Below, piece by piece: positions 18,901 to 64,000 of a stretch of DNA of 64,000 nt; positions within the stretch are counted from its first letter, which is position 1; each line of letters opens with the position of its first letter. The stretch covers positions 15,953,001 through 16,017,000 of the forward strand of contig NC_092568.1 of the NCBI RefSeq assembly GCF_037975245.1. Direction: 5' to 3'. Both the position numbers and the translations under genes were made by a program. A model generated the notes under the pieces. The model searched no databases and was not told the DNA's origin. It saw only the letters and a list, made by a program, of their open reading frames with translations. Origin of the DNA: Apostichopus japonicus. Taxonomy: Eukaryota > Echinodermata > Holothuroidea > Aspidochirotida > Stichopodidae.

Positions 18901-21900
18901 GTATAACGTTTAGCTGTCAGTTGCTATTTTTGCACAGAATGAGTTGGAGCCGCATCTACAACTGCCAGCAAGTGAGACCTTTAGCTAATTGTAGATACAA
19001 CGTAACATATCAAAGTAAAATTGCTTAGCCATTCCATCACACTCCACTTCAATATATTATGTACAGATCATTAGTATTCCCAACTAATTCAGTGCTGGTT
19101 GACTATTACAGTCACTGCAAATGCAGTTCTACTCACCATTTGGATGCCAATAGTGAATGCAGCTTTTGGCGAAAATTTCTTTCCACTTTTAAGGAAAAGG
19201 TTCCATAGATCCTCTCCAAACCGATCCATAACTAGAAATCTGTACCTTTTGTTTTTATGATCATGTAGACCAGCTGCAATGTAGCTAGGGACACCAAGGT
19301 GTTTTAACTTCTGCTTTTTCTTCCATGACTTGACTGTATAGTGGTTTAATGATTAGAATAAAGTATTGATATACAGTACTCAAAAATACAGAAGTTCTCA
19401 TTCCCAAAATCAAACACTCATAATGACAAAAATATGAAAACATAGTCGAAACAACGAAGAATATTTGTTTGTTAGGTTGGCAGCTGTACACAAATTAGAA
19501 GGGGTGCATTTCCACCTTACTATATGATGGTATCATATAGTAATCTTATCACAAATATACCTCATTTACATCCTGGTTAAACATAATTCCACTAACCACG
19601 TAACACATCTTTCAAAAGATAAAATCTTTCTCTAATGTGGCACTCTGGCAAGGTCAATTCATCTACTTAAAATAAAGGTAATATCTTGATGGAAAAATGA
19701 ATTGCTATGTAGAGTTAAATTCTGATCAATTTCAAGAAAGAAAATATTACCAAAGCAGAAAGAAAAAAACACATTAAACAGTTTCATGCCCGATTATGGA
19801 CAATGAATGAAAGAAAAGTTATTAATTCACTGGGATTATATACACAGCCTTTGACCATTTGCAACAATCATGCAGGAATTTGATCTTAATCCCCTTCCTT
19901 TGCTATGGTAAGCTATATTAATTAGCCTAAAATTCCATACCACATAATGGACCTTCTTTGGTAGGTTCATGGTTTGAATGAACAAAGTTCAATCTTTGAT
20001 CCATATACAACCACCTATTGAAAAGATGTCATTGAATCGAGTCACTGAATTTCAAGTGACTTGATACGTCAAACCTTAACATAAAGTGACTCCTTAAAAA
20101 CTCTTTCATTAACCTACCAAACTTACAGGGGTGGGGAGGGTTCAGGCAAGATGCGATAATTGCATGTACTGGCAAAAAGTTTAAGATATTTCTCTCTGTT
20201 GATTGAACTGGACTTTAGAGATCAACAAACAACAATATGTAATTCAGTTCAATATGTAGGTGACTTACTTATGTCAGGTTTAGCTGCTCTTTGGTAAAAG
20301 TGAAGCTCACAGAATAATGGACCATTCTCTTGTGGTTCCTGTCAAGGACAAATTTTTAAAGGATGCAAATCTTACATTGAAGAGAAAAATATTCCACACT
20401 GCAGTTAAAAACACCTCCACATCTTGCCTCTAACTCGGGCATCATTTGATTGAATGTGACCTTTGCTGACTGTCAAAACCCACTACTCCAAAAAGTTGAA
20501 TCACAGTAGGGGGTCTGTGATCTCTCTAGATTTATTAGAGAAAAGCAATTTTTAAAGCAATCAAGTTTGTTTATTATCAAGTTGCTAAATTGTGAAAAAC
20601 TAGGCTGTACTATGATGTATTTAGTTACTTTGTGGAGTTTCACTTTCCATGATACAATACAAAAACTGGATGGTGATGGATGGTGATGTTAAGTAACCTT
20701 TGACCTCCAGAAAAAAACAATACCGTCCTTTTACTGTACAAGATGGAGCCAAATACGAAGTACAATCAAGCTTTACTTTTAGAGTAACCAGTTTAATGTG
20801 GACCTAACATGGCCTTGCACATATAAAGAGAACAATAGGGATCTTGTACTCACTAATTTGAAGTCAAATACTAAGTATGATGTAAATCTGAACACAGTGT
20901 TCTTTATGAGGTAGACTTTACAAGCCAGGAAGTCACATACACACAGACTTATGCACATACACGCCATCGCAAAAATTCCTTTTGCCTTCGGCAAGGAATC
21001 AAAAAGCTTGTTGGACAGCCTGTTAGAGTTCTTGATAAGACTACAAGGTATTAACTCACAATTTTGATCACATGGGAAGGATTTTCTTGTGGTTTTCCTT
21101 CCTTAACTTCAGAGGCTGGGAAAAAAAGTCAAACAAAGCGTCATGAAACTTTTTGAAATGAAATGGAACTAGTAGTTATACAAATATTAAAATCATATAC
21201 ACCACTTAAAGGGTGTGAAGACTTGCGCAAAAAGAACATCTAATGCCGGTAATCTGACCATAGTTAGACATTACCATCGATCCCAGAAAATACGCACACA
21301 ACTTGCTAACTTCGGTAATTAGACACTAGTGTACAGTCAGTACATACAGCTGTGGTCAATACCCACAGCACAGTGTATAACGAAACAGCCATGGACATCT
21401 CAGGTCCAGCTTAAGATAACAATGTATAACGTTTCATTACTGTCTGCATTTTGTAGCGACAAGCAAAAATCTTCACTCGCAAGCAACGGAAAGTTAACTT
21501 TTCAAACAATCAAGCTCATGACCTGTAGACGCCATTATTACATCCAGGACAAAACTTTCAGATTCAATTTCAAACTCCATGATGATGACATTGGATATAC
21601 ATAGACTCTGTATATTCCTCCCCTTTCTACTCTTGTGTTTAAGTCACTAAAACACCAATGGAAACAAATTTAGGAGACAATTTAAGCCACTTCTGGCAAT
21701 GATAATGATCATAGCAACATTTTGTTTAAAGAAAATTTGTGCAGTAAAACACTACAATACATTTTCAAACAATTTTTGGGTTGGGGTATTTATGAATGAT
21801 GACTTAACTAGAATGAGGAGGGTCAGTGAATGAAAGCAGCTGGTCTCTAACAGGGTTCAGTGCCAAAGAGTTTGCTAGTTCACTTCAGACGAGACTGCTA

Positions 21901-23987: not shown

Positions 23988-24685
23988 AACATGTATTTTC
24001 GGTCGAAAAACCATGTTTATCGACCGATAAACCATGTTTATCACTCGAAAAACCATGTTTATCGACCGAAAAACCATGTTTATCTGCCGATAAACATGGT
24101 TTTTCACCGAAAAACCATGATTATCTACCGATAAACATGTTTATCTACCGATAGACATGGTTTTTCACCGAAAAACCATGATTATCGGCAGATAAACATG
24201 GTTTTTCTGAGAAACATGGTTTATCGAACCATAAACAGGGATTTTCATTAGATATTCCATGTTTTTCTTTCGAAAATCCATGTTTTTCTTTCGAAAATCC
24301 ATGTTTATCGGCGATAAACCATGTTTATCGGCGATAAACCATAAACATGGTTTATCGCCGATAAACATGGTTTATCGCCGAAAAACATGGTTTATCGACT
24401 GATAAACCATGTTTTCCGTCGAAAATCCATGTTTATCGGCGATAAATCATGTTTTTCGACAGATAAACATGGTTTATCGCCGATAAACATGGTTTATCGA
24501 CTGATAAACCATGTTTTTCGTCGAAAATCCATATTTATCGGCGATAAATCATGTTTTTCGACAGATAAACATGGTTTATCGCCGATAAACATGGTTTATC
24601 GACAAAATCCATGTTTATCGGCGATAAACCATGTTTATCGACCGATAAGCATAGTTTATCGGCGATAAATCATGTTTTTATATTT
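23988..24685. repeat. Array of about 20-bp palindromic ATGTTTATCG units
   Basis: About 35 degenerate units built from AACCATGTTTATCG and its reverse complement CGATAAACATGGTT, mixed in both orientations, with period about 20-21 bp. Short alternatives at the centre (GGCG, ACCG, ACTG, GACA) connect the halves, so neighbouring units can pair as hairpins. Frames on both strands stay open across much of it (NHVYRP and INMVFR repeats) as a by-product of the period. No flanking target duplication or transposon end was identified. Confidence 0.93.
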
Positions 24686-31394: not shown

Positions 31395-32345
31395 GCTTTG
31401 TGATTCCTTGCTAAATTTTGTATGAGACCATTAATGAAGTACATACACAATTTTACTTTTTTTTACAAGATTTTTAGACTTTAACCTCTGTAAACCTCAA
31501 ATGACCTTTGAGCACAAATAGCAGTGTTATTGTATTCCACAGTGTGGAACCACATATGGAGTATCTAGAGTTTACCCAAACTTAACATTTTCAGTTGTTC
31601 AGCATAGATTGCAACAGTTGATCTCCGTTGGCCTGAAAGGACCTTTGACCTCCACAGAGTAGATAAGAATGATTGTACTCCATGTTGACCATCCTACATG
31701 CATAGCACATCCAATCTTTACTTTAGAAGTTATTGTGCTAGTATATTTTCAGACTTAAGTTAACCTTTTCTTGACCTTGAATGAGCCTTGACCACAACAA
31801 AAACAATTGCACTCAATAAGGTGGGATCCATGTAACGGGTATGGCATTCATCCAAGGTTTGTCATGAAAGCTTTCAGAGTTGGAACTCTGTAGGCCTTAA
31901 ATGACCATACAGTTTACCTCCACAGAAAGCAATAGGATTCTTGTATCTTATATAGTGGACCCTCATACATAAGTATAAAGTGCATCCAAGGTTCATTTTT
32001 TGAGATATCATGTGTACAAGGTTTCAGATTTCGACATTTGCTGACTCAAAATTATCTTTCACCACTTGCCAACTTCAAAAAGACTCTAGTTAAATTACAA
32101 AATTGAATATACCTGTCAAAATGAAGTTCATCCAAGCTTTATTTTTGCAGAAATTGTGTATACAAGGTTTTCATACTAACTGACTACTGTTGATTTCAAG
32201 TGACCATCGACCGCCACCAACATTTTGATAGGGTTCTTTACTTACCAACTGGATCTACATACCAAGAACGAACAGTATCCAAGTACTAGAGTTTGACCTC
32301 TGTTGATATAAAAGCTCATTTGAGGTCACCAGAGGCTAATGTCTG
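31395..32345 (+). repeat. Degenerate copy of the TGATTCCTTGCC tandem-core element
   Basis: Opens with TTGTGATTCCTTGCT, a near match to the left end at 54380. It is followed by repeated phrases of the same core: TTTGACCTCCACAG, AATGACCTTTGAG, GAGATATCATGTGTACAAGG, GTTTCAGA. No right end was seen, so it is truncated or eroded. Confidence 0.6.
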
Positions 32346-34240
32346 AAATGCTTGTAAACATGATAACTCCACAAGTAAAGCTGTGATGAACTTCACATTT
32401 AGTATCTCGTTCCACAATAGTGAGTAGAAAAACACATTAGTTTCTGGATGTTCAGCTTCTCTAGAAATGCTCATTGGCAAATTGATTTACACAATCGCAC
32501 CAAAGAGATATTCTTGCCAGCGGGCCACCAAGCAATCTGCCCTTTCTCACCAGATTTCCGTACAGCATTTGAATTGCTTGTTTACTTGGGGTAGGAATCG
32601 AACCTACCTACTTTCAAGAATATCTGTTGTAGTGCACAACCTGAAATAATTATTTAATTTTGTTTTTATTGTATATTTACAATTGAGTGGTAAGTTGAGA
32701 ATTTTTACCAATCAAATATAAATTTTGACACCAGTAGTATGTCTGTTTAATAATGTGACAAACCTTTTATTGTATCATATAAAGCTATTATTTGGTATTT
32801 GTTTCCAAATACCAATTATTAATTTCCTTCAACTTTAAAAGAAATGATCTGATTTTTGTTTTCTTCTCCATGAAGGTGCTACTGTACTTTAGAATCAAAC
32901 CATTAGTGGTGTAAACCTTTGCTGAGAGCTTCTTTTTTTTTGCTGGGGTAGCAAATGGGTCAATGTAGTGAGAATGTAAAAAGTTATGTGGTGCAGGACT
33001 GCATGATAAAACACACAATAAAAGAAACAAATTTGTTACTTCAGCATTAGTTGTTGATAGTCACATCTGGTCTAAGCGCTTTGGAGAGTTTTAAATTTGC
33101 AGTACTTCATCATGTTAATATACACAGCCCGTTTACTTCACTTTAAATGAAGAAAGTTCTTCACAACATGTCATCCCAAAATATTTTCCTCAAGTGAGAA
33201 GACAATCACTCAACTGTATGCATTTTTCATATGTGTAGTTCCTCAGAAATGTAATGATCTCAAACTATTTAGTTTTGTGCCTACACAATGTAAAAGTTGA
33301 ACAGAATTTGACTACAAAATTTCTACTGTGTCAAGTTCTTTCATACCCCGAATTTGACACATTCATCAATAAGCTTACTGTAAGTAAACATCCATTGACT
33401 CTGGATACTGTTTTCTGTGCTCTGAACCTAGTCTAAGTTTAGGTCCAAGAGAGTAGTGATATCATGTTGAGGTAATTTTGGTTATTTGTAGGGAGTTAGA
33501 TTTCCAAATGCCAAAAATATGTGCAAAACTGTGGGTAGGGTGTTAAAAGTTAAAAAAAAACACAATTTGATCACCACATACCTGAAATGGATTCAAACTT
33601 ATGAAATATGTAACTCTGCCAAAAGTATTGGTTGCCTGATGTATCCCCTACACCCTACTAATACTAATAATAGCCTATGCCTAGGTTCGTGTTGTATCCA
33701 AGGCTGTGGATAGTGGAAGTCAAATTACAAGCGTGTAACTGTACGCTAGGAACAATATGTTTGCTATAACCTTGAACTAGGCTTACAAACCTCATACATC
33801 GAATCCGTCATTACTTCAGCCCAATGTTATCATAACTGAAACCTAAGTTAGGACTTAAGTTAGCAAAGGGCCTAATTATGTCTAAATTTATCCAGCGTTA
33901 GGTACAGTTTACGCATGTATACTACTACTACTAAACCGGACTGAACCTGGCCGACAGAGCTAGCAAACAGCAAATTATACTCTAAAGTAGGTATAATGCG
34001 GTCACCTGGCAGTAACGTGACAAACCGTGTGAATGATGAAGGCAAAGTGCAGCCCGGTTACTACTAATACTATACTAGTCACTACTAGTACTACAATACA
34101 ATTGTCAGTAGCCTAACTTAGACTGGTAACGATACTGTTCGATTGCAAAACATACTCAGTTTTCTACTCAAGAAATTTTGCTCTCTGTCACTTTGCCAGT
34201 TTAATCCCAAAATCTATGTAAAGTGCTCTGAAAAGAAAGC
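32346..34240. other. Intergenic, upstream of HSP70
   Basis: AT-rich sequence with only short chance frames. No gene, RNA or transposon end was recognised. The right-hand part (33700-34240) has many TAG/CTA triplets and leads into the heat-shock promoter. Confidence 0.45.
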
Positions 34241-35052: not shown

Positions 35053-38000
35053 GAAAATCGTAATGAGTTGGAAAATCAAGAACAGTGAAAAAACTTTCAG
35101 CCTCCACCGGGATTCGAACCATGGGCCTCCCGCTCTGTACGCGGACACCCTAACCACTAGGCTATGGACGCTGATTGTATGTCCAGAGGTTCGAAACCGG
35201 TAAGGAAGATCGTAATTCCACTGTAGGCGTTTGTCACCTATATCGAACAATACTAGTTCTGTTTTTGGTGACATATTTTGCCTTACTCTAGAGATCAAAC
35301 ATGATGCTATCCAACTCGAAAATCATTTGTGATTCCTAAAGCCGGATCTCGAAAGAGATACTTTGAACAGAGTTCAAAGTATCTCTTTCGAGATAGGTGA
35401 CAAACGCCTACAGTGGAATTACGATCTTCCTTACCGGTTTCGAACCTCTGGACATACAATCAGCGTCTATAGCCTAGTGGTTAGGGTGTCCGCGTACAGA
35501 GCGGGAGGCCCGTGGTTCGAATCCCGGTGGAGGCTGAAAGTTTTTTCACTGTTCTTGATTTTCCAACTCATTACGATTTTCATTTATATATATTCATTTG
35601 CCTTTGTCGTTTACCTCCATTGCATATATTTATATATATATGTATATATATATATATATGCTTATAGTCATCTGTATGCAGTGGCGTAGGAAGGTACTTT
35701 TGAGTGGGGGGGGGGCTGAAGACTGATGGCCGGCCTGTATGGGGGAGGGGTCTAAGGGGAGGGGGTGACCCCCTCCCCTTTGGATTTTTTTTTGCATTTC
35801 CAGGTGGCCTCAAATGCAATTTGGTGCAATATAGCACACTTCAACCCACCCACTCCATTTTGTAAATAATTTTGCATTTTCACCTGGCCTTAGATGCAAT
35901 TTGGTGCTCCTAATGAGATTTTTTTCTCATTTGGAAATGAAAAAGGGGTTTTCTGACTTGCGAAGCGGGGGGGGGGGGGGGCGGAATGATACTTCCGCCC
36001 CTCCATATTTGTCACTGGGGGGGCTGGCGCCCCCCAGCCCCCCGGTTCCTACGCCCTTGTCTGTATGTTCAAACGAGCATGTGTACAGTGTGCCGCATGA
36101 GCTCCTTAACAAAAAAATTTCAGCAAGTTTGTAGCGTGGTACAATTATCTAACTAAACCCATCTTCACCTCCTGTAAATACTTTCGAGTGTCTAAAACGT
36201 CAGGACATTTCTTTTCAAACCTTTTGAAAAATACATTTTAAAGCGAATTCAATACAGTTGCAAATAATGAAGGCATCAATGTTACAAAGATAAATTAAGT
36301 AGCCAGGGGAGAATTAGAGATGTCAGTTTGATATGATTGACATATTGATATAACAATGAGATTATAATAATAATAATAATAATCAGCAGCAGCTATTTTG
36401 TTTTTACCACAAATGATTACTTAGCTTTATTTCTTCAAATGCCACCGCCTTTATGCACTCAGTCATACTTAAAGAATAAATATTAGCAAAATATTAGTGG
36501 AGTTGAGTCATTATGTACTGTAGCTGTTGTTTCATATATAATTAAAACCCTCATCGTTCATCGTGTGGGTCTTTACCAGGTGGGATGGGAGGGGGAACAT
36601 TTTCACGTAGTGGGAACACCTGCCTGGAATGCGTATATTAACACAAAGGAGACGATGATGTCATTTTATCCAGGCTGATGCCAATAAGGAGTATGGTATC
36701 CAAGACTTGGTCTTTTCAAGCTGATAATGTTTGAAAATTAAACTAGAATTTCATTCCTTACTTGACAGGAACCCAACAAATACCATCTTTGATGCCAAAC
36801 GTCTGATTGGTCGATCGTTTAGTGATACAGCAGTTCAGTCTGATATGAAGAACTGGCCCTTTAAGGTCATTAACAAAGCAGGGAAACCAGTCCTACAGGC
36901 GGAACACATGAATGAGGTGAAGACATTCAACCCGGAAGAGATTAGCTCGATGGTTCTTACAAAGATGAAAGAAACGGCTGAATCATACTTGGGTCAAAAG
37001 GTCACCGATGCCGTAGTCACCGTACCTGCCTACTTCAACGATTCACAGCGACAAGCCACGAAAGACGCAGGGGTCATCGCTGGACTTAACGTTTTGAGAA
37101 TAATTAACGAGCCGACGGCCGCAGCTCTCGCCTATGGGCTCGATAAGAAACTTAAAGGTGAACAACACGTCCTCATCTTTGATCTCGGAGGAGGGACATT
37201 TGACGTCTCTGTCCTCTGTATCGACGACGGAATGTTTGAAGTCAAGTCAACAGCGGGAGACACACATCTCGGAGGAGAAGACTTCGACAATATTCTTGTC
37301 GATCATTTCTCGGCGGAATTCAAACGTAAACACAAGAAAGACATCACCGGTAATGCTCGGTCTCTGCGTCGACTGAGAACTGCCTCGGAGAGAGCCAAGA
37401 GAACATTGTCAAGCAGTGCGCAGGCTAACGTGGAGATCGATTCGCTGTTTGAAGGAGTAGACTTCTATACTTCAATTACCCGAGCTCGTTTCGAAGATCT
37501 TTGTTCTGACCAATTCAGAAAATGCCTAGAACCAGTAGAGAAAGCAATACTCGACGCTAAAATTAGTAAGAGTGCCATCGATACAATTGTCCTCGTCGGA
37601 GGTTCTACTCGAATCCCTAAAATACAGAAAATTTTGACGGATTTCTTCAACGGTAAAGACTTGAACAAGTCCATCAACCCAGATGAGGCTGTAGCTTATG
37701 GAGCGGCTGTACAGGCGGCAATCTTGTCTGGAGATCAAAGTGAAGAGGTAAAAGACATTTTGCTAGTTGACGTAGCTCCCCTGTCTCTGGGTCTTGAAAC
37801 AGCGGGGGGTGTCATGACAACACTTATTGAAAGGAACAGCCGCATCCCTTGTAAGAAGGAACAGACATTTTCAACGTTCTCTGATAACCAAACAGGGGTA
37901 TCGATTCAGGTATTCGAGGGTGAAAGAGCATTGACGAAGGACAACAACCGCCTTGGTCAATTTGAACTTTCGGGAATCCTTCCAGCCCCACGAGGCGTTC

Positions 38001-38527
38001 CTAAGATAGAAGTGACCTATGACATCGACGCTAATGGAATTTTGAATGTTTCTGCTAAGGACTCGAGTACTGGTAAATCCAACACAATCACCATCACGAA
38101 CGACAAAGGCAGATTGTCAAAGGAAGAGATTGATCGCATGGTGGCGGAAGCGGAACAATACAAGGCGGAAGACGACGCACAAAGGGAACGCATCACTGCG
38201 CGCAATCAACTGGAGAACTACGCATACAGTGTAAAAAACGCAGTTCAAGATGCTCCAGAGGGAAAATTGAGTCAAGAAGATCGAGAAACCGTCATGAAGC
38301 TAGTCAATGAAACGACAACGTGGCTGGACAGCAATCTCCTTGCAGAAAAGGATGAATGTACCTACAAATTCGAGGAACTGCAGAAGACAGTCGCGCCTAT
38401 TATGACGAAGATTCATCAAAATGGAGGAAGCGCAAGCGACGGAGAAGCCGGTCCTTCCAGCTGTGGGTCTCAATCTAACCAGGGGCCAAGCCAAAGTCAT
38501 GGGCCAACAGTCGAAGAGGTGTATTAA
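34673..38527 (+). CDS. HSP70: Cytosolic HSP70 chaperone with one intron and an EEVY end
   Basis: ATP-dependent chaperone of the cytosolic/nuclear HSP70 class. Exon 1 is 34673-34863 and exon 2 is 36769-38527. The split ATG codon (AT + G) rebuilds QVAMNPTNT, giving 649 aa. All three HSP70 signatures are present: [12 protein letters not shown] near residue 12, [12 protein letters not shown] and [14 protein letters not shown]. The substrate-binding domain includes [11 protein letters not shown]. The intron sits at a position I recall as used by the vertebrate cognate HSPA8 (around codon 63-70), yet perfect heat-shock elements lie upstream. The C-terminus lacks GGMP repeats and is Ser/Gln/Gly-rich, ending GPTVEEVY. 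The start at 34673 is chosen because the frame upstream of it has no family similarity. The intron of about 1.9 kb is filled by repeats. Confidence 0.95.
35051..35605. repeat. Head-to-head pair of tRNA-like repeat units in the HSP70 intron
   Basis: Two copies of one unit in opposite orientation meet near 35365, at the point where GAACAGAGTTC forms the junction. The right-hand (+) copy carries a pol III A-box-like TAGCCTAGTGG at about 35470 and a perfect B box GGTTCGAATCC at about 35514, followed by TGAAAGTTTTTT, which resembles a pol III terminator. The left copy is its reverse complement with a few changes, including GGTTCGAATCC with one flanking substitution. AT dinucleotide tracts flank both sides. 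The transcript of this intron could fold into a hairpin of roughly 250 bp. Confidence 0.85.
35679..36059. mobile_element. Non-autonomous hAT element in the HSP70 intron
   Basis: Begins CAGTGGCGTAGGAA and ends TTCCTACGCCCTTG (12 of 14 positions pair). An exact 8-bp duplication TCTGTATG flanks it at 35671-35678 and 36060-36067. It is 381 bp, with long G and C runs and no coding capacity. The end motifs resemble those at 41303-41747 (GGGCGTA / CTACGCC), so they may share a transposase. Confidence 0.88.
36068..36768. other. Remainder of the HSP70 intron
   Basis: No repeat family is recognised here apart from a short ATA trinucleotide run near 36365. It ends with the acceptor TTACTTGACAG just before the second HSP70 exon. 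Confidence 0.6.
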
Positions 38528-51380: not shown

Positions 51381-52720
51381 GAAAATCGTAATGAGTTGGA
51401 AAATCAAGAACAGTGAAAAAACTTTCAGCCTCCACCGGGATTCGAACCACGGTCCTCCCGCTCTGTACGCGGACACCCTAACCACTAGGCTATGGACGCT
51501 GATTGTATGTCCAGAGGTTCGAAACCGGTAATGAAGATCGTAATTCCACTGTGGGCGTTTGTCACCTGTATCGAACAATGCTAGTTCTGTTTTTGGTGAC
51601 ATATTTTGCCTTACACTAGAGATCAACCATGATGCTAACCAACTCGAAATCATTTGTGATTCCTAAAGCCGGATCTCGAAAGAGATACTTTGAACAGACT
51701 TTATGTTAATGCAATGGAGGTAAACGACAAAGGCAAATGAATATATATAAATGAAAATCGTAATGAGTTGGAAAATCAAGAACAGTGAAAAACTTTCAGC
51801 CTCCACCGGGATTCGAACCACGGGCCTCCCGCTCTGTACGCGGACACCCTAACCACTAGGCTATGGACGCTGACTGTATGTCCAGAGGTTCGTAATGTAT
51901 ATATATCGTAATATATATATCGTAATATATATATATATATATATATTACGATATATATATTACGATATATATATTACGATATACATACATTACGATTTTC
52001 ATTTATATATATTTCATTTGCCTTTGTCGTTTACCTCCATTATATTAACATAAAGTCTGTTCAAAGTATCTCTTTCGAGAATCGGCTTTAGGAATCACAA
52101 ATGATTTCGAGTTGGTTAGCATCACTGAGTTTGATCTCTAGAGTGGGATAAATTATGTCACCAAAAACAGAACTAGTATTGTTCGATACAGGTTACAAAC
52201 GCCTACAGTGGAATTACGACATTCCTTACCGGTTTCGGATAGGCCTATCTGGACATACAATCAGCGTCTATAGCTTAGTGGTTTGGGTGTCCGCGTACAG
52301 AGCGAAAGGCCCGTGGTTCGAATCCCGGTGGAGGCTGAAAGTTTTTCACTGTTCTTGATTTTCCAACTCATTACGATTTTCATTTATATATATTCATTTG
52401 CCTTTGTCGTTTACCTCCATTGCATTAACATAAAGTCTGTTCAAAGTATCTCTTTCGAGATCCGGCTTTAGGAATCACAAATGATTTCGAGTTGGTTAGC
52501 ATCATGTTTGATCTCTAGACTGGGGCAAAATATGTCACCAAAAACAGAACTAGTATTGTTCGATACAGGTGACAAACGCCTACAGTGGAATTACGACATT
52601 CCTTACCGGTTTCGAACCTCTGGACATACAATCAGCGTCCAAAACCTATAGTGGTTAGGGTGTCTGCGTACAGAGCGGAAGGCCCGTGGTTCGAATCAGA
52701 GAATACACCGGCAGAAGAAC
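51338..52720. repeat. Cluster of tRNA-like repeat units, inverted and tandem
   Basis: Same unit as in the HSP70 intron. Reverse-oriented copies lie at about 51377-51700 and 51750-51890, forward copies at about 52005-52395 and 52396-52700. The two forward copies are in tandem with a period of about 380 bp (GTTCAAAGTATCTC at 52059 and 52439). Each full unit has A-box-like TAGNNTAGTGG and B box GGTTCGAATC. The centre, 51893-52003, is a palindrome of ATAT tracts broken by CGTA. The tRNA-like part could form an anticodon arm with stem CCGC/GCGG, but units are embedded in repeats and are not credible functional tRNA genes. Confidence 0.85.
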
Positions 52721-53016: not shown

Positions 53017-54379
53017 ATTTATATTTGTATATAGTAAGATGGTTGTCACCATTTTGTGACTGACTTTGACTGGTTTTGCTTGCACTGTTCTCTGCCCAAA
53101 TAAGATATTATGAGACACTGAAGGAAACTCCTATTCTTTGGAAGAGACTCAAATGCAAGGAAAATCCCAAAACATTATAAGAACCGGTATCCACAACACT
53201 ATAAAACCTGCACAAGAGTTGAAAGTTTGTAGGAGGAAGGGCCGAAAAAACATCCACAGTTCATAGTTGTCTACAATATCTTGCATAATGGCAAAGTTTG
53301 TAAATGCCACTTTATAAATAAATGAATGACTGTACAGTTATCAATTGGGGTAATTAATATTGAAGACCAATAAAGTATAATTCTTCATGATATGATACAA
53401 TTTTTGCTTATTATTTTTATTCTTTATTCATATACTAATTTGTTGTAACTGTTTTGACCTATAAACTATAAAAATATTCTATTCAAAATATAAAGTTGAT
53501 CCTGCTAGGATGGATATGTCTCTTACCTTTACACACTATAAACTATCAGGTAAGAAGGAGAAATGCACAAACTTAGTATACCACGATTAAATTTTAAATT
53601 TGATAGTCAATAAACCTCCATTTGATCGCCAACATAATTTATTTGTTCTTTATCACATGCTCGCTAATGTCTGTTGTATTAACATATCATTTAAAACAAT
53701 TTACATTGTAAGTAGTGACAGTGGGAGGACTTCTCCCGCATCACCAGATCCACTTGCAAATTAGATAAAATATCTTATATACACCACTTTTCACTGTTAA
53801 CTTCTTGATCATAAACACTTGACTGCCAAACACGACTGATAAATTGATTCTTCCATACATTACAATTTCTGGTGACCCACTGTACTTGAAATAGTATATA
53901 CATCATAGAGAATAAAAGATAAAAACAGAGAAATGGATTGCAAATATATAAAAATATGCTCAAACGGTTGGAATCATTTGTGCTTGCTCTAAGATATGTC
54001 TCCTTATGGATATATGATGTGATGGCTAGACCTGGAATTGTATGACCTCGGTATTGCTACTTCTCTGTTCATTTCTTGCATACTATTCACTACTCATGAA
54101 CAATGTAATAACTGGCTTGTGCTAGGAGGACAAATTTAGGAGGAAAACAAATGTTTTGGGAAACATTCTGCTGAGTATAATACCAACAAAACTTTCATGA
54201 AAAGTCTAACAATAGCAAGAAGAAAATATATTCCAATGTCACATATATCAGTGTTCCTACAATAATTGTCGATTTATAGGGGCATCACTTTATAACAAGG
54301 TTACTTTCAAAGGTCAACTGTGATGTAACTGGTTACATTCTGAACTAGAATATATAAACCAGAAAGTCAAAAGACTTAG
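52721..54379. other. Intergenic AT-rich stretch
   Basis: Contains (TC)n and (TA)n simple repeats at about 52928-53030. No gene or transposon end was recognised in the remainder. Confidence 0.5.
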
Positions 54380-55865
54380 TGATTCCTTGCCCATATGATA
54401 ATAAACTTTAGGTAGAAGATTTTCTAACGATCTGAAATGCTCAGCAGAAATGGCAAGTCTTGCAGAATTGAGTAATGCATATCTATGCAAAGAGGGTCGA
54501 AGGTCAAATAAACTTCACTTCTGTATAATTCTACTTATTCTGACTATAACCAACAATTGACCTTGAATGACCTTTGACCTCCATGAAAAACAATAGGGAT
54601 TATCTTCTCATCAAAGGCTACCAACATACCAAGTTAAAGTTCATGAAACTTTTCTTCTTGAGATATTGTATTCACAAGGTTTACAGCCTTTGACCTCTGG
54701 TGACCTCAAATAACCATTAGCCTCCATGAAAAACACTAGGGATCATCAGTACACCAAAGGCTACCAATATACCAAGTTTAAGCAACTTTTACTTCTTGAG
54801 ATATCGTGTTTACACGGTTTTCAGACTTTGACCTGTGGTGACCTTTGACCTTCATGGAAAACATGAAAAACCATGTCGGACCCCATCAGTTGGAGTTTCA
54901 CAAGTTATTGCCCCCAAGAGCCATAACTGACCTTTGGTGACCTTGGATTACAAAACGGTTATTTAGTAAAATGTGCACCTACTTCATTCACAATATGTCC
55001 CAATATATCAGCCATGTCAGACTTCGTCACTGAAAGTTGTTGCAAAAATTAACGTAAGTGGACATTTTTTTGCCCATAAGCAACCTTGAATGACCTTGGA
55101 TGGCGATTTTATGAAAAATGTTCCCCTTGATGAAGTGCACTCCATCCTTAAATTGTTATGCACTCCAATGTACATACACAATGTTATTGCCTTGAGATAT
55201 TGTGTTTACAAGTTTTTTAACTTTTGACCTCTGGTGACCCCAAATGACCTTTGACCTCCATGAAAAAGCAATAGATATTTTTGCTCACCAAGGGCTATCT
55301 ACACACCAAGTTTAAAGTTCATGCATCTTTTACTGGCTGAGATATCATGTTTACATGGCTTTCCGCCTTTGACCTCTGGTGACCCTAAATGACCTTTGAC
55401 CTCCATGAAAAAGAGTTGGGATCATCTGCTATCCTAGGTCAATCCACAGTCTAATTTTCAAGTTGAAGCATCTTGTACTTCTTGAGATACCGTGTTAACA
55501 ATTTTTTCCGCCTATGACCTCTGGTGACCTCTCAAATGACCCTTGACCTCCATGAAAAAAGATAGAGACCATCTACTCACTAAGGGCTACCCACATACTA
55601 AGTTTGAAATTCCAAAAACTTTTACTCCCTGAGATATTGTGCTTACAAGGTTTTCAGACTTTGACCTCTGTTGACCTCAAATGACCTTTGACCTCCATGA
55701 AAAACAATAGGGATCATCTACTTACCAAGGGCTACCCACATACCAAGTTTGAAGTTCATCCAACTTTAACTTCTTGAGATACCGTGTTTACAAGCAAAGC
55801 GTCACATACACACACACACGCCATCACCATCGCATAGATTCCTTTCGGCCTTCGGCAAGGAATCA
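54380..55865. mobile_element. TIR element with a tandem core of about 145 bp rich in TGACCT
   Basis: Perfect 12-bp terminal repeats TGATTCCTTGCC (54380-54391) and GGCAAGGAATCA (55854-55865). The core from about 54550 consists of about eight degenerate copies, period near 145 bp, of phrases such as TTTGACCTCCATGAAAAA, ACCAAGTTTAAAGTTCAT and CTTGAGATATTGTGTTTACA. The right end has a CA run, GCCATCGCA, and a hairpin (GATTCCTTTCGG / CTTCGGCAAGGAATC). Truncated relatives lie at 20938-21001, 31395-32345 and near 60692. No transposase and no clear target duplication were seen, so the class (MITE or Helitron-like) is open. Confidence 0.72.
54568..55694. promoter_or_regulatory. Cluster of DR1 and DR4 nuclear-receptor half-site repeats
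   Basis: The exact DR1 TGACCTTTGACCT occurs at 54568-54580, 54839-54851, 55245-55257, 55390-55402 and 55682-55694. Exact DR4 arrangements (TGACCT, 4 bp, TGACCT) occur at 54691-54706, 54829-54844, 54928-54943, 55515-55530 and 55662-55677. DR1 is the HNF4/RXR/COUP-TF-type consensus and DR4 the thyroid-receptor/LXR-type. The match is direct; binding is inference. Confidence 0.6.
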
Positions 55866-56019: not shown

Positions 56020-59000
56020 TTATGACGTTACGAAACCAGAATCATCTGAACTATTCTGAGACAACATACTTTTAGGCCTGGTACTAGGAGAGTCTGGAAA
56101 ATCAATCCACGATGAAGATGATGGGGTTGATGATGACAATGATGATGTTGATGATGATGAAGAAGGATGTCTCCTGCCAATACCATCTCCCTCCTTGAAA
56201 TTCACTGCCAACTTTAACTTCCTCCTGGGTCTGCTTTTGGTTTGAGCATTATTATTAACGAAGCTGACAGGACTGCTGAACCCTGAGTCTCCCTTCCCGC
56301 TACAGGGAGATATTAATGGACGAACAGGCAAGCCGGGGAATTGAAGTGAATCTGAGGATACTAGATTAGCTCTCATTGGAGTGGAGTGATGGCCAGGATG
56401 AGAGATTGGTTGGACAGAATAACCTCTTGTCAACAACCTTGGATCGTTTCCATGAGGAAGACGTACAGGAAGGGAACTGAGGTCAGTTTCATCCCGGCCA
56501 GCATCTTCTTCCCAGTAATCTGTGGAGATGGTGAATGGTGCAGAAATCTGGCGTGCTGGCTTCAACTTCTCGAAGTCCGGAGCATCGCAGGCGTTTGGTT
56601 GAGTGAGGTATCTACTCCCTTTTGCCAGGCACTCCCTGACTAAGGCAGCTGCATCTTTCCTTTCAATACCTTCAAGATGAGATATCAATTCATCATAGCT
56701 CTTAAGCCTACCTGACCTACAGGCACTCAAAAGGACTTGTTTGGTATGATGTTTCGCCTTTGCAAATAATTGAGTATCTTGGTGTGTATAGTGCAGTTTA
56801 CCAGCAAGTCCTTCCCAGTTGTTGCAAAAAGTATCTTCAGTGTCCAACAGATTAGACAGCCCAATAGCAACACTTTCCATAACATGAAAGGTTGGGGGTG
56901 ACGCTGGTGACATCTCATTGTCTGAATACCGACTTGGAGAAGTTGGTGGAAGATGAACATGAATGTGAGATGCATTTCCATTGGATGGAGGTATATGAAT
57001 TTCACTGCCGTTAAATTTAAGGGCTCTTTGCTTCTCCTCAGTCACGTCTGAGTCTCTCTTGTGTGTATTCTGCATTGATTGTGCCAATGGCTTCTCAAAA
57101 GGCTGGAATCTAACTTCCTCTAGCTTCAAGAAGTCAGAAATCTGCAAAGAAAAGAAAATACCTTGAAATATTTCACATGGATTTACCTGATTAAATCGGT
57201 TATACAGTTAAGTTTTCCAAGAAAAGTCTTGCAACAACCCTGTTAACAATTTCAACATCTGTAGTGTTTCAACTTCAAATCATCTAAGTTCACTTCTTAT
57301 GCAGCAGTCTGGTATAAAAGGTTCTTGCTTTCACACCTTTTTGTTTGGATAAAAGCTTCATACGATTGTGATAACCCCATGTCATGACCTTAGACTTTCC
57401 TTGATAGTGGCATTTCTTTATACAAACCAAGTTAACCACGGTGGGTTTTTTTCTATGTCTTTAAAGTAACAATTTAGTTTGTGAACAGTGAACATTTTGG
57501 TGGATGATAGTTGACCTCTACCCCCCAAATAGCATGCATGCTATGGGGGGGGGACAAACAAACAGAAATGTTGTCTATTTATAAAATGTCTCATTTATAA
57601 ACTTCCCAACCAAGTGTCTCTTGTTACTCAAAACTAGACCACATATATGAACCGATTAGTACCTCTTTTTGGAGTTCAAATTTGACACTCTCACTATTTT
57701 CTTCTTGCTGTACCCTCAAAGTTCCACTCAGTTTTCCACCACCAGATTCAGTGTTACTTTTCATCCTGAGGTTAGCCACACCTCTGCTGCCATGCCAAAG
57801 AAGGTGATATCCAATGGTCTGTAAAATAATTTACATACAGTATATGAAATATCTCATTTTACCTATGACCATTGTGTTACTATGTGCCATTATGCACACA
57901 ATGTCGTAAAATGATAGGCCATTCAGGACCAATTAAAACAACTTTGTGCGTGATCTTAAATCTGCATCTTTCGGGCACACTCCATCTTATCTCTCATCAC
58001 CTATCCTCCCCCCATCCCCCCTTGTCATTCCTTCCAAAAATTTCACTAGTGCACATTCACATAGAAATTCTTCTCTGCTGCCCACCATCAAGACATTTTC
58101 ATTTTAGTTTTTATCTGGATATTTTGTAGACAGGGCTAAAACACAAATCCCTGTCTAAATGAGATATAGTGAATACAATTTGCTTGAGAGTGAAAGGTAT
58201 GGTCAGATTCAGTACTCTCTGAAAAAGAGCCAAACGGTCACTATGGTTCCTTGCTGACTGTTGTGCCTAAAGTGTTGTATGCCATCACCCAATATAAATA
58301 ATAGTGATTGCAACGTTTAAAAATATTTGGGCCCAAATGGTCCCAAACATTGGGCCCAAAGAATGTGTCCAAAAATGCATTTGAGGTGGAAACTAAGCAG
58401 CAATGCTGCAGTGACTCAACTCATCATCTGTAAAAGGAAAACCAATTCAGTGGAGGGCTGCCATGAGTCCTGTTCTGCACCCTGCAGAGCTTCCTCCCTC
58501 CATATCCTATATACAGTATATCCACATTATCAAAGCAGTGAGAACTCTAAAAAGAGTGCTAAGACTCTGAAAAAAATATCAAACTTGCACAAAATTACCA
58601 CTCCCCTTTATCCAATCATCTATTCCTGAACAAGCTGTATTGCCACCCCAATGTAGCACATTCACTGCAAATTTTACAAAAATCAGCCAGCAATTATATA
58701 AAAAAGTAGGCTTTTTAAAAAGAGACAGACAATTCCCCAACTTCAGTCTCACATAAGCTCTACCCATATTAGTAGGTTGAGCTAGAATTTGGGCCCAATG
58801 AGTGCCACAAAGGGCCCAGTTGGTCTCAAAGTATTTAGGCCTACATGTAACAGCTCTATTAACCAACAACTGGATACCACGATTGGAAAAAGTGGGCCCA
58901 ATGGTCCCAAAAATATTTGGTCCAAAGAATGTGTCCAAAATGCATATGAGGTGGAAATAAAAGTTGGGCCCAGAATTTTGGGAGGCCCAGATGGTCTCAA

Positions 59001-62000
59001 CAAAAATACATGTATCAGCTGTTAACCAACAACTGCACACCAAGATCGGAGTTATTGCAATGTAAAGATAACCTCATTAATATTCATAAGATCCATACCA
59101 AAATGGATAGGGCACACCTTCTCACTTTAATACATCTACATAGCCAGTATGACAAATGACTCGGTTGTTGAGTTATTGCAGACCCAAGCAAGTGTTACAA
59201 ATGCACACACACACAACACACACCAACCTGACTGCATAGGTTCTTTTACTTCCAACAAGGAACCAAAACTGAAAGTATTATCATGTATTCATATTGTTCC
59301 ATCAGTATAGAATGTTGGACAAGTAGAAAAAAACCAGGAAGAAGAAGTAGGCAGACCATTAACATTTAAGTCTAAACTGAAATGAACCATTTTAAAATCA
59401 TTGTGAGAGCTTTCAATAATTCAATGGGAGAGTGCTGTGATGAAACAAACTGAAAGTTGACGCTCACTTCGTTGTTAACATCGCTCAATACGTGCAGATG
59501 ATAATTAAAAAGAATAGCATTATATCCCTTTATGCTTCTTTGAATAATCTTGGCCTTTGAAGCTTCCATCTTTCTGACAATGTCTCCTCACCTCTCTCAA
59601 AATTATCTTCCTCACTGTCACTACCGCCTTCCTATTTATTTATTTTTCATTTCTACCTGTTAAAGTCTAAATCTTTGTGCTACATACATGTTAAGTTCTG
59701 TTCAATCTCCACCATCCCCAACTGTATGATGAAGCCAATGTACTGTGTTAATTTCCTCTTAAAACAACCAAAATTAAAATAATTATGGCCCATCAATTAG
59801 CACTAACACCTTTACTGAAAGAAATTTCTTCCAAACTTGCACTAAATTGATGACATTCGTTGGCTGGTTTTATATAAACAGAAAAGTTCAAAATGGCGTT
59901 GGTAAAATCTAAGTCTTGTTCATATGATGGATGAGGAGGTCAGATCAAGGTCACCTTGGAACATGAAGAGAAGAAACCCAGCATAGACTAATCTTGCCTA
60001 CATATATAAATCAGTCAGTTCTAGCCCCTGATGGACTTATATACAATCAATACAATCATAACAACTCATTTACATAAACATTTAGTTCATAAATTGTTCA
60101 AACTTTAAATATATTCCTACCTCCTCAGCAGTAACAACCTTCCATTGATTACTAAAATTTGTGTATGAGATGTTGACAGCTTTGTTCGATACCAACAGCA
60201 TGAAACTCCTGTAACTATCAAGTACCTTTCTTCCATGATCACCAGTCTGCTCTTGAATTAATTCCTGTCAAACCAAATAATAATTCAAAAACAGTTCAAG
60301 CTGAGTTTGAGGTTAATTGAGAAACTAGATTACTAACACCAGTATTGTGGTGTTTGTATTTCAATCTATAAATCAACAAGGAAGTTCTGACTGGTTCCAC
60401 AGTGATATGTAATATACATCATGTATATAACATGTAACAAACTCCTGGTAGGATCTGGTAGAGGGTATAAAATAAGGATCTTGCCTTGGGTGTTTGATTG
60501 AAAGTTTGACTACCAGGCTAGAATTATCGCTTTCCGATTCCACAAATTAAAGTGCAAGTTGCTCTTACGATGAATTATTAGTGTAGAGCTTCTCCTTCTT
60601 TTCAAATTATTTTTGAATGGCGATTTTCATCGATCATGTAAGAAAATGATAAGGCTGTTAAATTAAATAACCAGAAATCCTGATGCCTTTGTGATTCCTT
60701 GCCACATAAGTTGCTCAAAATTCAACTGAACTATCTTCTCTTTTCCCCTTCTTATTCTTTATTCTGACTAATGTAGAACAAGTGAGTTAAATATATCCAA
60801 GAATTAAGTGCAAATCAAAAAACCATTTCCAGCACTGGCAATGTAAATCAAGAGACTCTAATGTTGACCAAACATATACCATCTATTGCAAAAGTTTATG
60901 ACTTGAAATAGTACAACTTCAACTTATGATATTTGCTCTTTGTTAAGCTCAGTCAGATGACTTCAAAACTTTTGCCCACCACATATAACACAAGGATAGG
61001 ACATCAAACCAAGTGTGCATTCTTGATCTACTATATCCTGTTTATGATTTATGATGTTGCCTAACTTCTGTCACAACTGGAGTGTTAGCTCAGTGGTTAA
61101 CGCCGGTGCCTTCCAATCATAAGGTCCCCGGTTCAAGTAACTCCAAGATTAATGTATGTCGTCCAGTTACAGTGTTGTTGACAATTGATACTTCATAATC
61201 ATGGACGTTAAATATGAATCTAAGAGAATCTAACTGCGGTCAGCTTGCGGTTTTGTCAAGCCAATGAGGCTTCTTCGCGTGTTCCTGTTTGCAGGAGGAT
61301 CTAAAATACATACATACATACATACAACTGATCTATAGGCTACAGCATTTAGCAAACCATACCGTTTCTGGCAACATACATCTGTGCATTCCAACATAAC
61401 AAAACCATATGTTGCTTATTTAATGCTATCATATGTACAAAGCTTTGAGATTTTGGCGCCTTTATCGCACGGTTGGACTCACTAGTATACTGATGAAAAT
61501 GTCTTCACTAAAGACAGGTTACGCAAATCACCAGCTATGCCCAACCAATTGGCCTTTGTTTGACTTCCCAAGATGAAGAAGACTTTTTGCTCACTACTGT
61601 ATAGATGTGCAGGAATGATACAAGAAGGCTAACAATCAACATTGTCTGTACAAAGGAATGAAAAAGGATTTCATTATTTTATACTCTGATCACCGGAAGA
61701 AAATAATTCATTTCCACATTTCCAAATGTTGAACGAGAGGGTTGTCAAGCGAGAGAAGTGTCACACTATGTTGTACAAACGTTTTGCAAAGTTTACTTAC
61801 TTCATAAACTTCTTGTTGATTGTTACATATCCAAAGAGACAGAAGAAGGTCATCTGCAGGTCCACTCAATCTGTTGATCATTGGAAAGACTCGAAGCATT
61901 TTACCAATGATGCAATCATAATCGCTGAAGTGAGTCAGAAAGATGGAACAAGAAGTTTTCTCAAGGGATGCCCTGGATGATGCATCCTCATCTCGAACCC

Positions 62001-63674
62001 AGGATGGTTTTAATCCTATTAAATTAAGAGAACGTTTCCAAAGGATAAATCTTGCTGAAAGATAAACTTCTCCTAATTCTACGACTGTTTTCTACAAATT
62101 TAAGACAACTAGAGAAACATGCATCATCTTTCAAGACATTGGCTTTCGTTGTTTCAAATTAACTGCCAGGATTCTTTGCATTATAACATTGTAAGAGATA
62201 AACATAAATGTATCAACTAATGAAATAATTGATTTACATCTTAACAAATTTATGACCGAGGGCAAAACATGACTACTATGGATCATATATGCTGAGTACT
62301 TTCTGCCAATCTCTATTGTTGAAATGGAGACTTGGTTCATTGAGAAACTTTACAGTTGACTACTGCAACATATCTGGGACGAGCACAAACTTCTGCAAGT
62401 AACAAAACACTTTGAATACCTTCTTTATCTGGATGAGGCCTTGTGTACACCTCTACTGGTACTTTAGCTGGCTCCACAATTACCCCACAGTGTGGTATAA
62501 CTAGTTCCACTGGGACCTGGAAAGATATTCCATCAGGTTGGCACCTCACGAGAGGAGTAATTCTCGGAGAATCATCTGGCCGAGGGCAACCGTGCTCAGC
62601 TGGGTCCATAAAGGCACTGAGCTGAATTTGATATCCACTGGTCAATGCTCCCGGAGGAATTCGGAGATAAATGCTAGATCCAGGTATGAAGAGAATCCCC
62701 CCTTCTTCGTCAATGTAATCACATGCACAGAGACTCTCGTTGACTGATAGTCTGGAATCATGCTCATCAGAAGGCAAATAGAAAAGTGGAGATACCTCAG
62801 CAGATCCAAAACCAGAATCCACTGGACCAAGGAGCAATTCTGCTGAACTTAATTGCTTGACAGTTTTATTTCCAGCAAACCCTTGCGGTTCTTTTTCAAC
62901 AGGTTTCTGATGAGTAGATTCTGGGTCTGACTGATCTGAACTCGAAGGTGTCCTTGTCTTTGTATTCTTGTGACTATCTAGGAAAATATTCTCAAAATTT
63001 ACCGAGGAACTTAACTGTTCGGAGTTACTTGAATTCAAGGAAATTATGCATCTATCATATTCGCGATCAACATCCACATCTACAGATTTATTTGAGATCT
63101 CCGCATCAATCTTGTTCCTGATCTGACTATGGTGTTTCTCTATAAGAGCTATTGCATTATCCAACTTCAAAATTTCGAAGGCCTGCTGAAGATGGCTAAG
63201 ATCCTTTCGAAACCTCTCACCTTGTGTCATTACAGATATGGCTGGATTATTAGTTGATTGATACAGTCTATTAAACTGTTCTTGAGTAAGACCTAACAGC
63301 AATGCCAGCTGATTAAGTGTTCGGCGCTCCAAATGATTCAATACCTCTGATAGCTCGTAAAGTAGTCCAAATGGGATAGTAGCTGAGTCATCCAAGGAGA
63401 AATTGCACCTCGGTAGACTGCCTTCACTCAAGCTCTCGTGGAGAGACATTTTAAGGCTATTGGACAGGCCAGAGCCATAATCAACAGAAGAGCTGTGCTC
63501 TGATCTGCTGCCTTTTGGTCCGAGGTCTGAGGTCATCATGTGTGATCGACCATCAAACTGAAGTTCATGGGCTGAGTAAGGGCGAGTACTGAGTTTCTTC
63601 AACTGACGATGTGAGACAAAAGACTTGCCACTTGCATGTGCTGCCATAGCTGTGCACTGGCTCTTACAATCCAT
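56020..63674 (-). CDS. Death-fold / ZU5 / UPA-like / death-domain protein (UNC5- or PIDD-like)
   Basis: Five phase-matched minus-strand exons: 63674-62354, 62054-61801, 60264-60121, 57818-57663, 57141-56020; 998 aa if translation starts at the ATG at 63674. An acceptor-like TAG directly precedes it, so more N-terminal exons may exist upstream. Residues about 100-183 (LLYELSEVLNHLERRTL ... LIEKHH) look like a helical death-fold domain. Residues about 316-406 are a ZU5 domain (EEGGILFIPGSSIYLRIPPG, TPLVRCQPDGISF, ELVIPHCG). Residues about 440-625 occupy the UPA position. Residues about 716-797 are a death domain with its typical Trp (NNWEGLAGKL) and helices to LVRECLAKG. The tail is Ser-rich and probably disordered. 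No transmembrane segment is visible. ZU5-UPA-DD modules act in UNC5 receptors, ankyrins and PIDD in apoptosis or adaptor signalling; the specific role here is unknown. Confidence 0.85.
58244..59265. mobile_element. TIR element TGGTTCCTTG in an intron
   Basis: Perfect 10-bp ends TGGTTCCTTG (58244-58253) and CAAGGAACCA (59256-59265), preceded on the right by a CA run and a hairpin (GGTTCTTTTACTTCC ... AAGGAACC), the same right-end design as the element at 54380-55865. The interior has tandem phrases such as GGGCCCAAATGGTCCC, AAGAATGTGTCCAAAA and AACCAACAACTG. It lies in the intron between exons 60264-60121 and 57818-57663 of the death-domain gene. Confidence 0.65.
61080..61323 (+). repeat. tRNA-derived SINE, copy 2 (intron of the death-domain gene)
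   Basis: Full-length relative of the copy at 14866-15101: GTTAGCTCAGTGGTTAACGCC (A-box region), GGTTCAAGTAACTCC (B-box region), body, and an ACATACAT tail. It is flanked by the 7-bp duplication ACAACTG at 61073-61079 and 61324-61330, as expected for target-primed insertion. Confidence 0.88.
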
Positions 63675-63676
63675 TC

Positions 63677-64000
63677 CTATTTTCACAAATGAAAGAGATC
63701 AATATAGTTTCAACTTAAAACAGCATTTTGTAGCCATGTAATATAATGTAGGGTTTCCATTAGTGAGACTAAGGACCACATTTATGCAGTAAGAATTGAA
63801 CACCATTGTAAGGTTATGTTCAGTAGGATGTGTGGCAATATAGGGTCCACACCAGAGACTTGGATGTAAGTTCTACAGCTGCAAATAGCTGCATTACTAA
63901 AATAAAAAAATAACAGTTCTGCAGTTAGTGAAGTGCTCTAATTAAAAAGTGATAAGAATTCCTGCTTTGATAGTTGTAATCTCCTAAAAAACATCACATG
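63677..64000. other. Upstream of the death-domain gene, nothing recognised
   Basis: Probably intron or 5' flank of the minus-strand gene. The minus strand reads TGTGAAAATAG into the exon, so an acceptor is possible at 63677. No further exon was identified before the window ends. Confidence 0.4.

Follow-up and report, generated by a model that had tools for sequence, protein, structure and literature searches.

A HINE-like mobile element of the sea cucumber Apostichopus japonicus carries an array of DR1 and DR4 half-sites, probably as a passenger

Does a mobile element that carries a dense array of hormone-receptor half-sites lay down regulatory sites for its host, or do the sites travel with it as passengers? 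The question is raised by one element in a 64,000-nucleotide stretch of DNA from Apostichopus japonicus (the window, meaning the whole stretch that we analysed), which contains all exact DR1 and DR4 sites of the window. The preliminary description of this locus had claimed at least five exact DR1 and five exact DR4 sites; we find five exact copies of DR1 (TGACCTTTGACCT) and seven of DR4 (TGACCT-N4-TGACCT), so that the first count holds and the second is exceeded. When up to two mismatches are allowed, the whole window contains 18 DR1 matches against 1.61 expected and 26 DR4 matches against 5.24 expected, and none of 100 shuffles reached either number. These shuffles, together with the genome-wide control given below, rule out a chance origin of the sites.

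The sites are embedded in tandem repeats. The 145-bp internal repeat that had been described is real: a 145-bp period runs through 55193-55794 (4.1 copies, 76% matches), and more units lie at 54558-54867. On the written (plus) strand, the central repeat units form two blocks. Block 1 (54558..54867), with unit profile matches at 54558-54655, 54660-54796 and 54798-54867, contains DR1 at 54568 and 54839 and DR4 at 54558, 54691 and 54829. Block 2 (55194..55795), made of four full units and one partial unit with a period of 145 bp, contains DR1 at 55245, 55390 and 55682 and DR4 at 55515, 55662 and 55672. The remaining exact DR4 (TGACCT-TTGG-TGACCT, 54928..54943, plus strand) sits isolated between the two blocks. 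Within the 145-bp unit, four TGACC half-sites with a spacing of 10, 10 and 7 bp form a box that reads DR4-DR4-DR1 and places the half-sites about one helical turn from each other. The minus strand, which is the canonical strand of the element, reads these half-sites as AGGTCA.

The kind of element that carries this array can be read from its ends. When the window element and its flanks were used as a DNA query, 126 matches were returned, the window included (40 of 6,145 candidates were scored), and 20 copies were retrieved with flanks for the comparison. All 22 compared copies start with ACCAGAAAGTCAAAAGACTTAGTGATTCCTTGCC on the written strand, three of them with one mismatch, and the 19 copies with a 3' end stop at GGCAAGGAATCA, followed by an A-rich run (L060 has one changed base). 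L055 and L065 are without a 3' end, the 5' block is not covered in L064 and L066, and L052 has no match to the 3' block. By this comparison the window element occupies 54358..55865, followed by a short A-rich run, and is oriented on the minus strand, where it begins with TTTTGATTCCTTGCC and ends with TTTCTGGT/T, the slash marking the boundary. Its canonical order is a T-run, a subTIR, a short inverted repeat, a microsatellite, the central tandem repeats, the second subTIR, a palindrome and CTGGT/T. The subTIRs form a perfect 12-bp inverted pair, written on the plus strand as TGATTCCTTGCC on the canonical 3' side (54380..54391) and as its partner GGCAAGGAATCA on the canonical 5' side (55854..55865). 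The short inverted repeat, complementary to the subTIR, gives a hairpin, GATTCCTT-N12-AAGGAATC (55837..55864), and the adjoining (CA)n microsatellite (55804..55819, plus strand) varies in length and make-up between copies. Near the canonical 3' end, the palindrome AAGTC-AAAA-GACTT (AAGTCAAAAGACTT, 54364..54377) lies 6 nt from the terminus and is unaltered in 21 of the 22 copies compared. Genome-wide, the 34-nt end on the canonical 3' side occurs at 107 places with at most three mismatches, and the 21-nt end on the canonical 5' side at 231 places with at most two, each against a control of 0.

The ends are common to the 19 copies, and their flanks, compared by eye, differ between copies. The very termini carry no inverted repeat in any of these 19 copies, all of which have both ends. 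On the written strand, the last base of the 5' flank is A in 16 of the 19, and AAAA follows the ATCA of the 3' end in 16 of the 19. Flank matches of 4 nt are present in three of the 19 copies and consist of A/T only (ATAA, AAAA, AAAA); flank repeats of 1-2 nt were not scored as duplications in this comparison of inserted copies. These flanks accord with insertion in T-rich sequence (T/T) without a target-site duplication, as in HINEs, and the other features of a HINE, that is the subTIR pair, the 5' inverted repeat, the 3' palindrome, the microsatellite and the central tandem repeats, are also present. The terminal inverted repeats of a TIR transposon or MITE were found in none of the 19, and of its target-site duplication there is no sign beyond the three A/T-only matches. 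The locus had been described as a TIR element; because its 16-nt inverted pair lies inside the mapped ends, the pair is subterminal, and with two termini that differ from each other in the 19 copies that assignment fails. Rather, the anatomy of these copies, set against the published plan, indicates that the element is HINE-like, a presumptive non-autonomous Helentron. Over the full 833-bp 5' block, the window copy shares 93.6-98.9% identity with 16 others. The window copy is shorter, lacking about 470 bp at 55190/55191 relative to most retrieved copies, and has fewer central units than most; a few copies carry about 330, 500, 760 or 1,840 bp more than it at the same point.

The HINE plan has been published in PMC4067079, on mite and Drosophila elements, and in PMC7492417, on the Pacific oyster, and the likenesses drawn here refer to the available portions of the papers cited. 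Like HINEs and DINE-1 (PMC4067079), the sea cucumber element has subTIRs, an inverted repeat beside the 5' subTIR, a microsatellite, central tandem repeats and a 3' palindrome, and inserts in T-rich DNA (T/T) without target modification. What sets it apart are its own ends and a 145-bp unit of its own, in which four half-sites make up a TGACC box. The 12-nt spacing of its hairpin falls in the range of 1-12 bp given for Cg_HINE. Cg_HINE and pearl (PMC7492417, PMC5139131) also have arrays of short satellite-like units in HINE ends, with a unit of about 160 bp in pearl, and in bivalve HINEs, as here, related repeats are present in several elements. Two conserved motifs are common to the bivalve BIV160 and Cg170 monomers (PMC7492417, PMC5139131). 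The clam BIV160 primer TTTGACCCCAGGGGAATAATT starts with TTTGACCCC, a likeness that is only a lead, drawn from two BIV160 primers. In the available portions of PMC7492417 and PMC5139131, hormone-receptor half-sites are not mentioned for pearl or for BIV160-Cg170. A match to the DR1 letters in PMC11239237 proved to lie in an oligo for cloning a coding sequence and does not count as evidence for the repeat. Six fragments of the unit found no match in the text of the CC-licensed papers searched, and neither did a search of those papers for Helentron together with nuclear receptor. The HINE family was not encountered in the literature searched; it is to all appearances a known kind of element, whose central module is unusual and very abundant.

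An echinoderm parallel is offered by the Tsp elements of sea urchin, whose central tandem repeats are about 140 bp long. In the available text of PMC4067079, Tsp elements are cited as DINE-1-like, and the element described here resembles them, by description only, as an echinoderm DINE-1-like element.

A non-coding derivative of this kind would move by rolling-circle replication and would be mobilised by the Rep/helicase/endonuclease of an autonomous Helentron. The genome contains 50 matches to Helitron_like_N, and in ten cases the match lies in an open frame of 2,064-2,489 amino acids. One 2,348-aa open frame (L166) combines Helitron_like_N, PIF1 and Exo_endo_phos, with OTU just below the Pfam cut-off; by the description in the available portion of PMC4067079, it is a predicted Helentron protein. 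The search for an autonomous Helentron with the TGATTCCTTGCC subTIR and the ACCAGAAAGTC...GACTT end gave none: no ends were found for L166, and when 100 listed end sites (of the 107) were set by eye against the 50 Helitron_like_N matches, no proximity was apparent, the nearest pair seen lying about 0.1 Mb apart.

How widely has such an array been scattered? We searched the 671,581,487-base assembly (35 contigs) for its motifs and for controls. Exact DR1 occurs 14,819 times (6,817 + 8,002) against 45 for the reversed control, an excess of about 330-fold, and perfect DR1 (AGGTCAAAGGTCA) reaches a density of about 22 per Mb. The sequence TGACCNNNAATGACCTTTGACCT occurs 7,204 times and the four-half-site box TGACCY-N4-TGACCY-N4-TGACCTTTGACC 4,244 times, both against a control of 0. 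Two further 13-mers from the unit occur less often, GAGATATCGTGTT at 4,660 places (control 16) and CTTGTACTCAATG at 1,253 (control 11), which makes the DR1 13-mer about 3 and 12 times commoner, respectively. Each of 19 copies of the window family contains 4-7 exact DR1, and we estimate from the 107 ends and the DR1 per copy that the window subfamily supplies a few percent of the DR1 in the genome. The proposal that a mobile element scatters dense DR1/DR4 arrays is hence borne out for a wider class of repeats, for which both DR1 and the box so far exceed their controls.

HINE units do not account for all of these sites. Among 20 DR1 places, picked by eye among the first 100 listed matches and all on one contig (C1), the unit profile matched ten and gave no match at the other ten. 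Reading of the sequences placed 6 of the 20 within a clear 145-bp unit and showed the shared box at another 3, in surroundings that have diverged further; at L074, L075, L079 and L082 the stretches start or stop at the DR1 itself, so that their context is one-sided. The remaining sampled DR1 are in other repeats (for example a 42-bp minisatellite at L080) or alone, which indicates that the motif has been spread by more than one class of repeat. Exact DR1 outside a clear 145-bp unit was seen in other repeats or single contexts at L070, L073, L079, L080, L083, L084 and L086, and DR1 outside clear units far exceeds what the control predicts.

The unit itself reaches beyond the window family. Its GAGATATCGTGTTTACAAG segment has 6,323 matches with at most one mismatch (control 0), and through this GAGATAT-anchored segment, not through DR1, we selected 40 loci by eye among the first 100 listed, on contigs C1 and C2. 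At 20 of the 40, the unit adjoins one of four types of terminus, the window type included: 15 have GGTTACGATTATCATCGAAACC, three GGTTACC...CGTAACC, one GTTACTTGCC...GTAACC and one the window type. The other 20 show no recognised end within the stretch. As read from these junctions, the box is part of a repeat class common to several HINE families with different ends. The GAGATATCGTGTTTACAAG segment occupies columns 1-19 of the unit and is its most conserved part; it contains TGTTTAC, a forkhead-type core, and this may be by chance so close to the receptor-like box, at a distance of under 20 bp. In the viral and prokaryotic collections, 39 loci yielded no convincing homologue of the unit (best nhmmer E 0.18) and were taken as chance pattern matches. 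Two IMG/VR contigs, L067 (5930-6087) and L068 (402-559), are closely similar to each other; in them, TGACCTTTGACCT and inverted AGGTCA words form an array that resembles what may be an iteron-type region, without a match to the HINE unit profile.

Older relatives are present in the window, in line with the degenerate copies noted earlier. On the plus strand, the unit profile matches two degenerate units at 20680..20883 and eight at 31462-32449, two of the latter inverted, and gives a weak partial match at 59091-59153. The eight units belong to an old, decayed HINE-like copy (31401..32449) that retains 11 bp of the window element's subTIR (TGATTCCTTGC, 31401-31411); its second end was not found. 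None of the old units contains an exact DR1, and two retain it with one mismatch. Their cores are kept in 130 of 169 positions versus 535 of 807 for the rest (Fisher 0.0065), a count to be read, as for other diverged units, with the caveat that detection favours units that keep the box.

Next to the window copy, a minus-strand frame that contains a Death domain has its stop codon at 56020-56022, and the element starts 155 bp past it. A ZU5 domain lies upstream (62337-63698); the two domains would fit an UNC5-type gene. Given this distance from the stop codon, the window copy may lie in the 3' untranslated region of that putative gene, with the orientation of the gene corresponding to the canonical strand of the HINE. 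Elsewhere in the window, tRNA-Cys (aca) is called five times in some 17 kb (35098-35172, 35462-35536, 51426-51500, 51797-51871 and 52263-52337), and these calls are probably copies of a tRNA-derived SINE, an array of 20- and 41-bp palindrome-rich units of the CGATAAACATGTTTATCG type (24004-24677) is likely to form hairpins, and a large HSP70 open frame spans 36728-38527 (Pfam HSP70, E 4.2e-222).

Are the sites kept once a copy has inserted? We counted private and shared changes in 17 copies for the 5' block and 16 copies for the 3' block, the window copy included; L059 and L060 were dropped from the 3' block, where their best match is a non-corresponding unit at 79-80% identity. Private changes number 8 in 65 DR1 columns versus 158 in 1,372 others, a comparison of low power at about 2% divergence, and 15 in 162 columns of all half-sites versus 151 in 1,275 columns (rotation fraction 0.248). 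DR pairs are intact in 14-16 of the 17 copies of the 5' block, against a mean of about 80% for windows of the same shape. Because private changes do not avoid DR1, falling in its columns at the frequency seen in others, and the intact fractions are ordinary, inserted copies give no sign of being under selection, and the suggestion that such selection might be at work is not supported. The overall rate of change, by comparison, is lower in half-sites, at 0.0101 versus 0.0185 (rotation fraction 0.150, not significant) and 0.0127 versus 0.0195 in a count that includes two misaligned rows (rotation fraction 0.089, not significant), a hint toward constraint. The preliminary description had named decay at the rate of neighbouring bases as the observation that would speak against function. 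The private changes largely display such decay; the overall half-site rate departs from it, without significance.

The reading that we prefer, and hold with a good measure of confidence, is that of a HINE that carries its DR1 array as a passenger and decays at about the neighbouring rate after insertion. The array would have spread through transposition and tandem turnover of units, inserted copies would lose half-sites about as fast as other bases, and conservation of the box between unit types would reflect common descent and homogenisation, perhaps together with use in the element's own cycle.

That last possibility can be extended into an explanation of its own, in which the phased TGACC box serves the element itself as a docking site, either iteron-like for the Helentron Rep or for a nuclear receptor of the host, by which chromatin would be opened or germ-line transcription driven, with selection acting among master copies. 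We regard such an element-level function as possible but rather doubtful. It would account for the spacing of half-sites by about one helical turn in what is presumably a rolling-circle element, and for a DR1 13-mer that outnumbers the two other unit 13-mers, but this excess comes partly from other repeats. Shared, lineage-level changes are less frequent both in half-sites (5 in 162 versus 80 in 1,275 columns; rotation 0.080) and in DR1 (1 in 65 versus 84 in 1,372 columns; rotation 0.120), neither difference being significant. When 12 non-redundant unit types from the window family are compared, agreement is 0.979 in the TGACC cores and 0.835 in the rest (2/126 rotations), and among 74 non-redundant units cores match the consensus at 0.868 versus 0.742 (4/126 rotations). 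Diverged units of low identity, however, are detected preferentially if they keep the box, so the core conservation in the 74-unit set is only suggestive. Indeed, exact DR1 is present in 9 of 18 units in the quartile farthest from the consensus and in 1, 3 and 2 of 18 in the others; in the nearest quartile, where exact DR1 is found in 2 of 18, spacers are kept better than cores (0.902 versus 0.875). In the sample not selected for DR1, cores (0.866) barely differ from spacers (0.858), with the rest at 0.808 (20/126 rotations), and exact DR1 survives in 6 of those 40 units; for other 13-mers, taken outside the box, the mean is 0.103 and the highest value 0.225. Homogenisation of units, moreover, predicts the same pattern. 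Together, this suggests that conservation lies between unit types and families and would reflect constraint at the level of the element, or homogenisation, rather than selection by the host. A bolder form of the idea, to which we give a lower chance still, holds that the helically phased DR4-DR4-DR1 array might be a conserved working part of an old rolling-circle superfamily, iteron-like or receptor-docking and selected on master copies, with a large share of the roughly 15,000 perfect DR1 sites as a by-product.

Far less probable is the retention of many copies for a role as HNF4/RXR/COUP-TF or TR/LXR-type response elements, by which they would seed a regulatory network in the host. The density of perfect DR1 would suit such a role, and the genome encodes zf-C4 receptors (48 matches to nuclear-receptor DNA-binding domains, several of which are pieces of one domain). 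Vertebrates offer a precedent in Alu, a SINE. In the available portion of PMC3252374, ChIP and reporter evidence is given for low-affinity HNF4 sites in Alu, which is, like the class described here, an abundant repeat family with HNF4-type sites; unlike those of Alu, the sites of the window element are perfect and arrayed, and are candidates from sequence alone. A further point in favour is that the 145-bp unit appears to occur in coelomocyte transcripts of Holothuria leucospilota that are among the differentially expressed ones. The available text of PMC7161275 gives 20 primer pairs for such transcripts, eight of them tested, and three of the eight tested pairs fall in the unit, one primer being identical to the consensus. 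Against 2,000 shuffles, five of these six primers were matched by none and the sixth by two, and ten other primers did no better than shuffles. The unit thus appears to be present and transcribed in H. leucospilota, as judged from the primers; the repeat is not mentioned in the available text of PMC7161275. The pairs in question are the qPCR primers for unigenes 6841, 1366 and 1518, and assays with primers inside a repeat unit may measure repeat-containing RNA and not single genes. Retention by the host, however, finds no echo in the post-insertion changes, which do not avoid DR1, in the ordinary fractions of intact sites, or in the old window units, which are without exact DR1 even though two keep it with one mismatch. 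A TIR transposon, cut-and-paste or MITE, is scarcely credible and was rejected on the boundary comparison of copies, since the 16-nt, 94% inverted pair near the ends that speaks for it is set back from one end by 22 nt, the two termini are unlike, and a flank repeat of at least 4 nt is absent from 16 of 19 copies and consists of A/T only in the remaining three.

With a passenger array as the favoured reading, a regulatory interpretation of the DR1/DR4 sites would draw no support from sequence decay. If receptors do bind them, about 15,000 perfect DR1 sites, many laid down by transposition, would be a natural experiment with independent, near-identical insertions, and the rewiring of hormone-receptor networks by transposons would become testable outside vertebrates and insects. 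If receptors do not bind them, the family would caution against equating the abundance of a motif in repeats with regulation, because the sites are numerous, perfect and arrayed, yet bear no sign of retention after insertion. In either case, the unit class may bear on how satellite-like units persist in the HINEs of distant animals.
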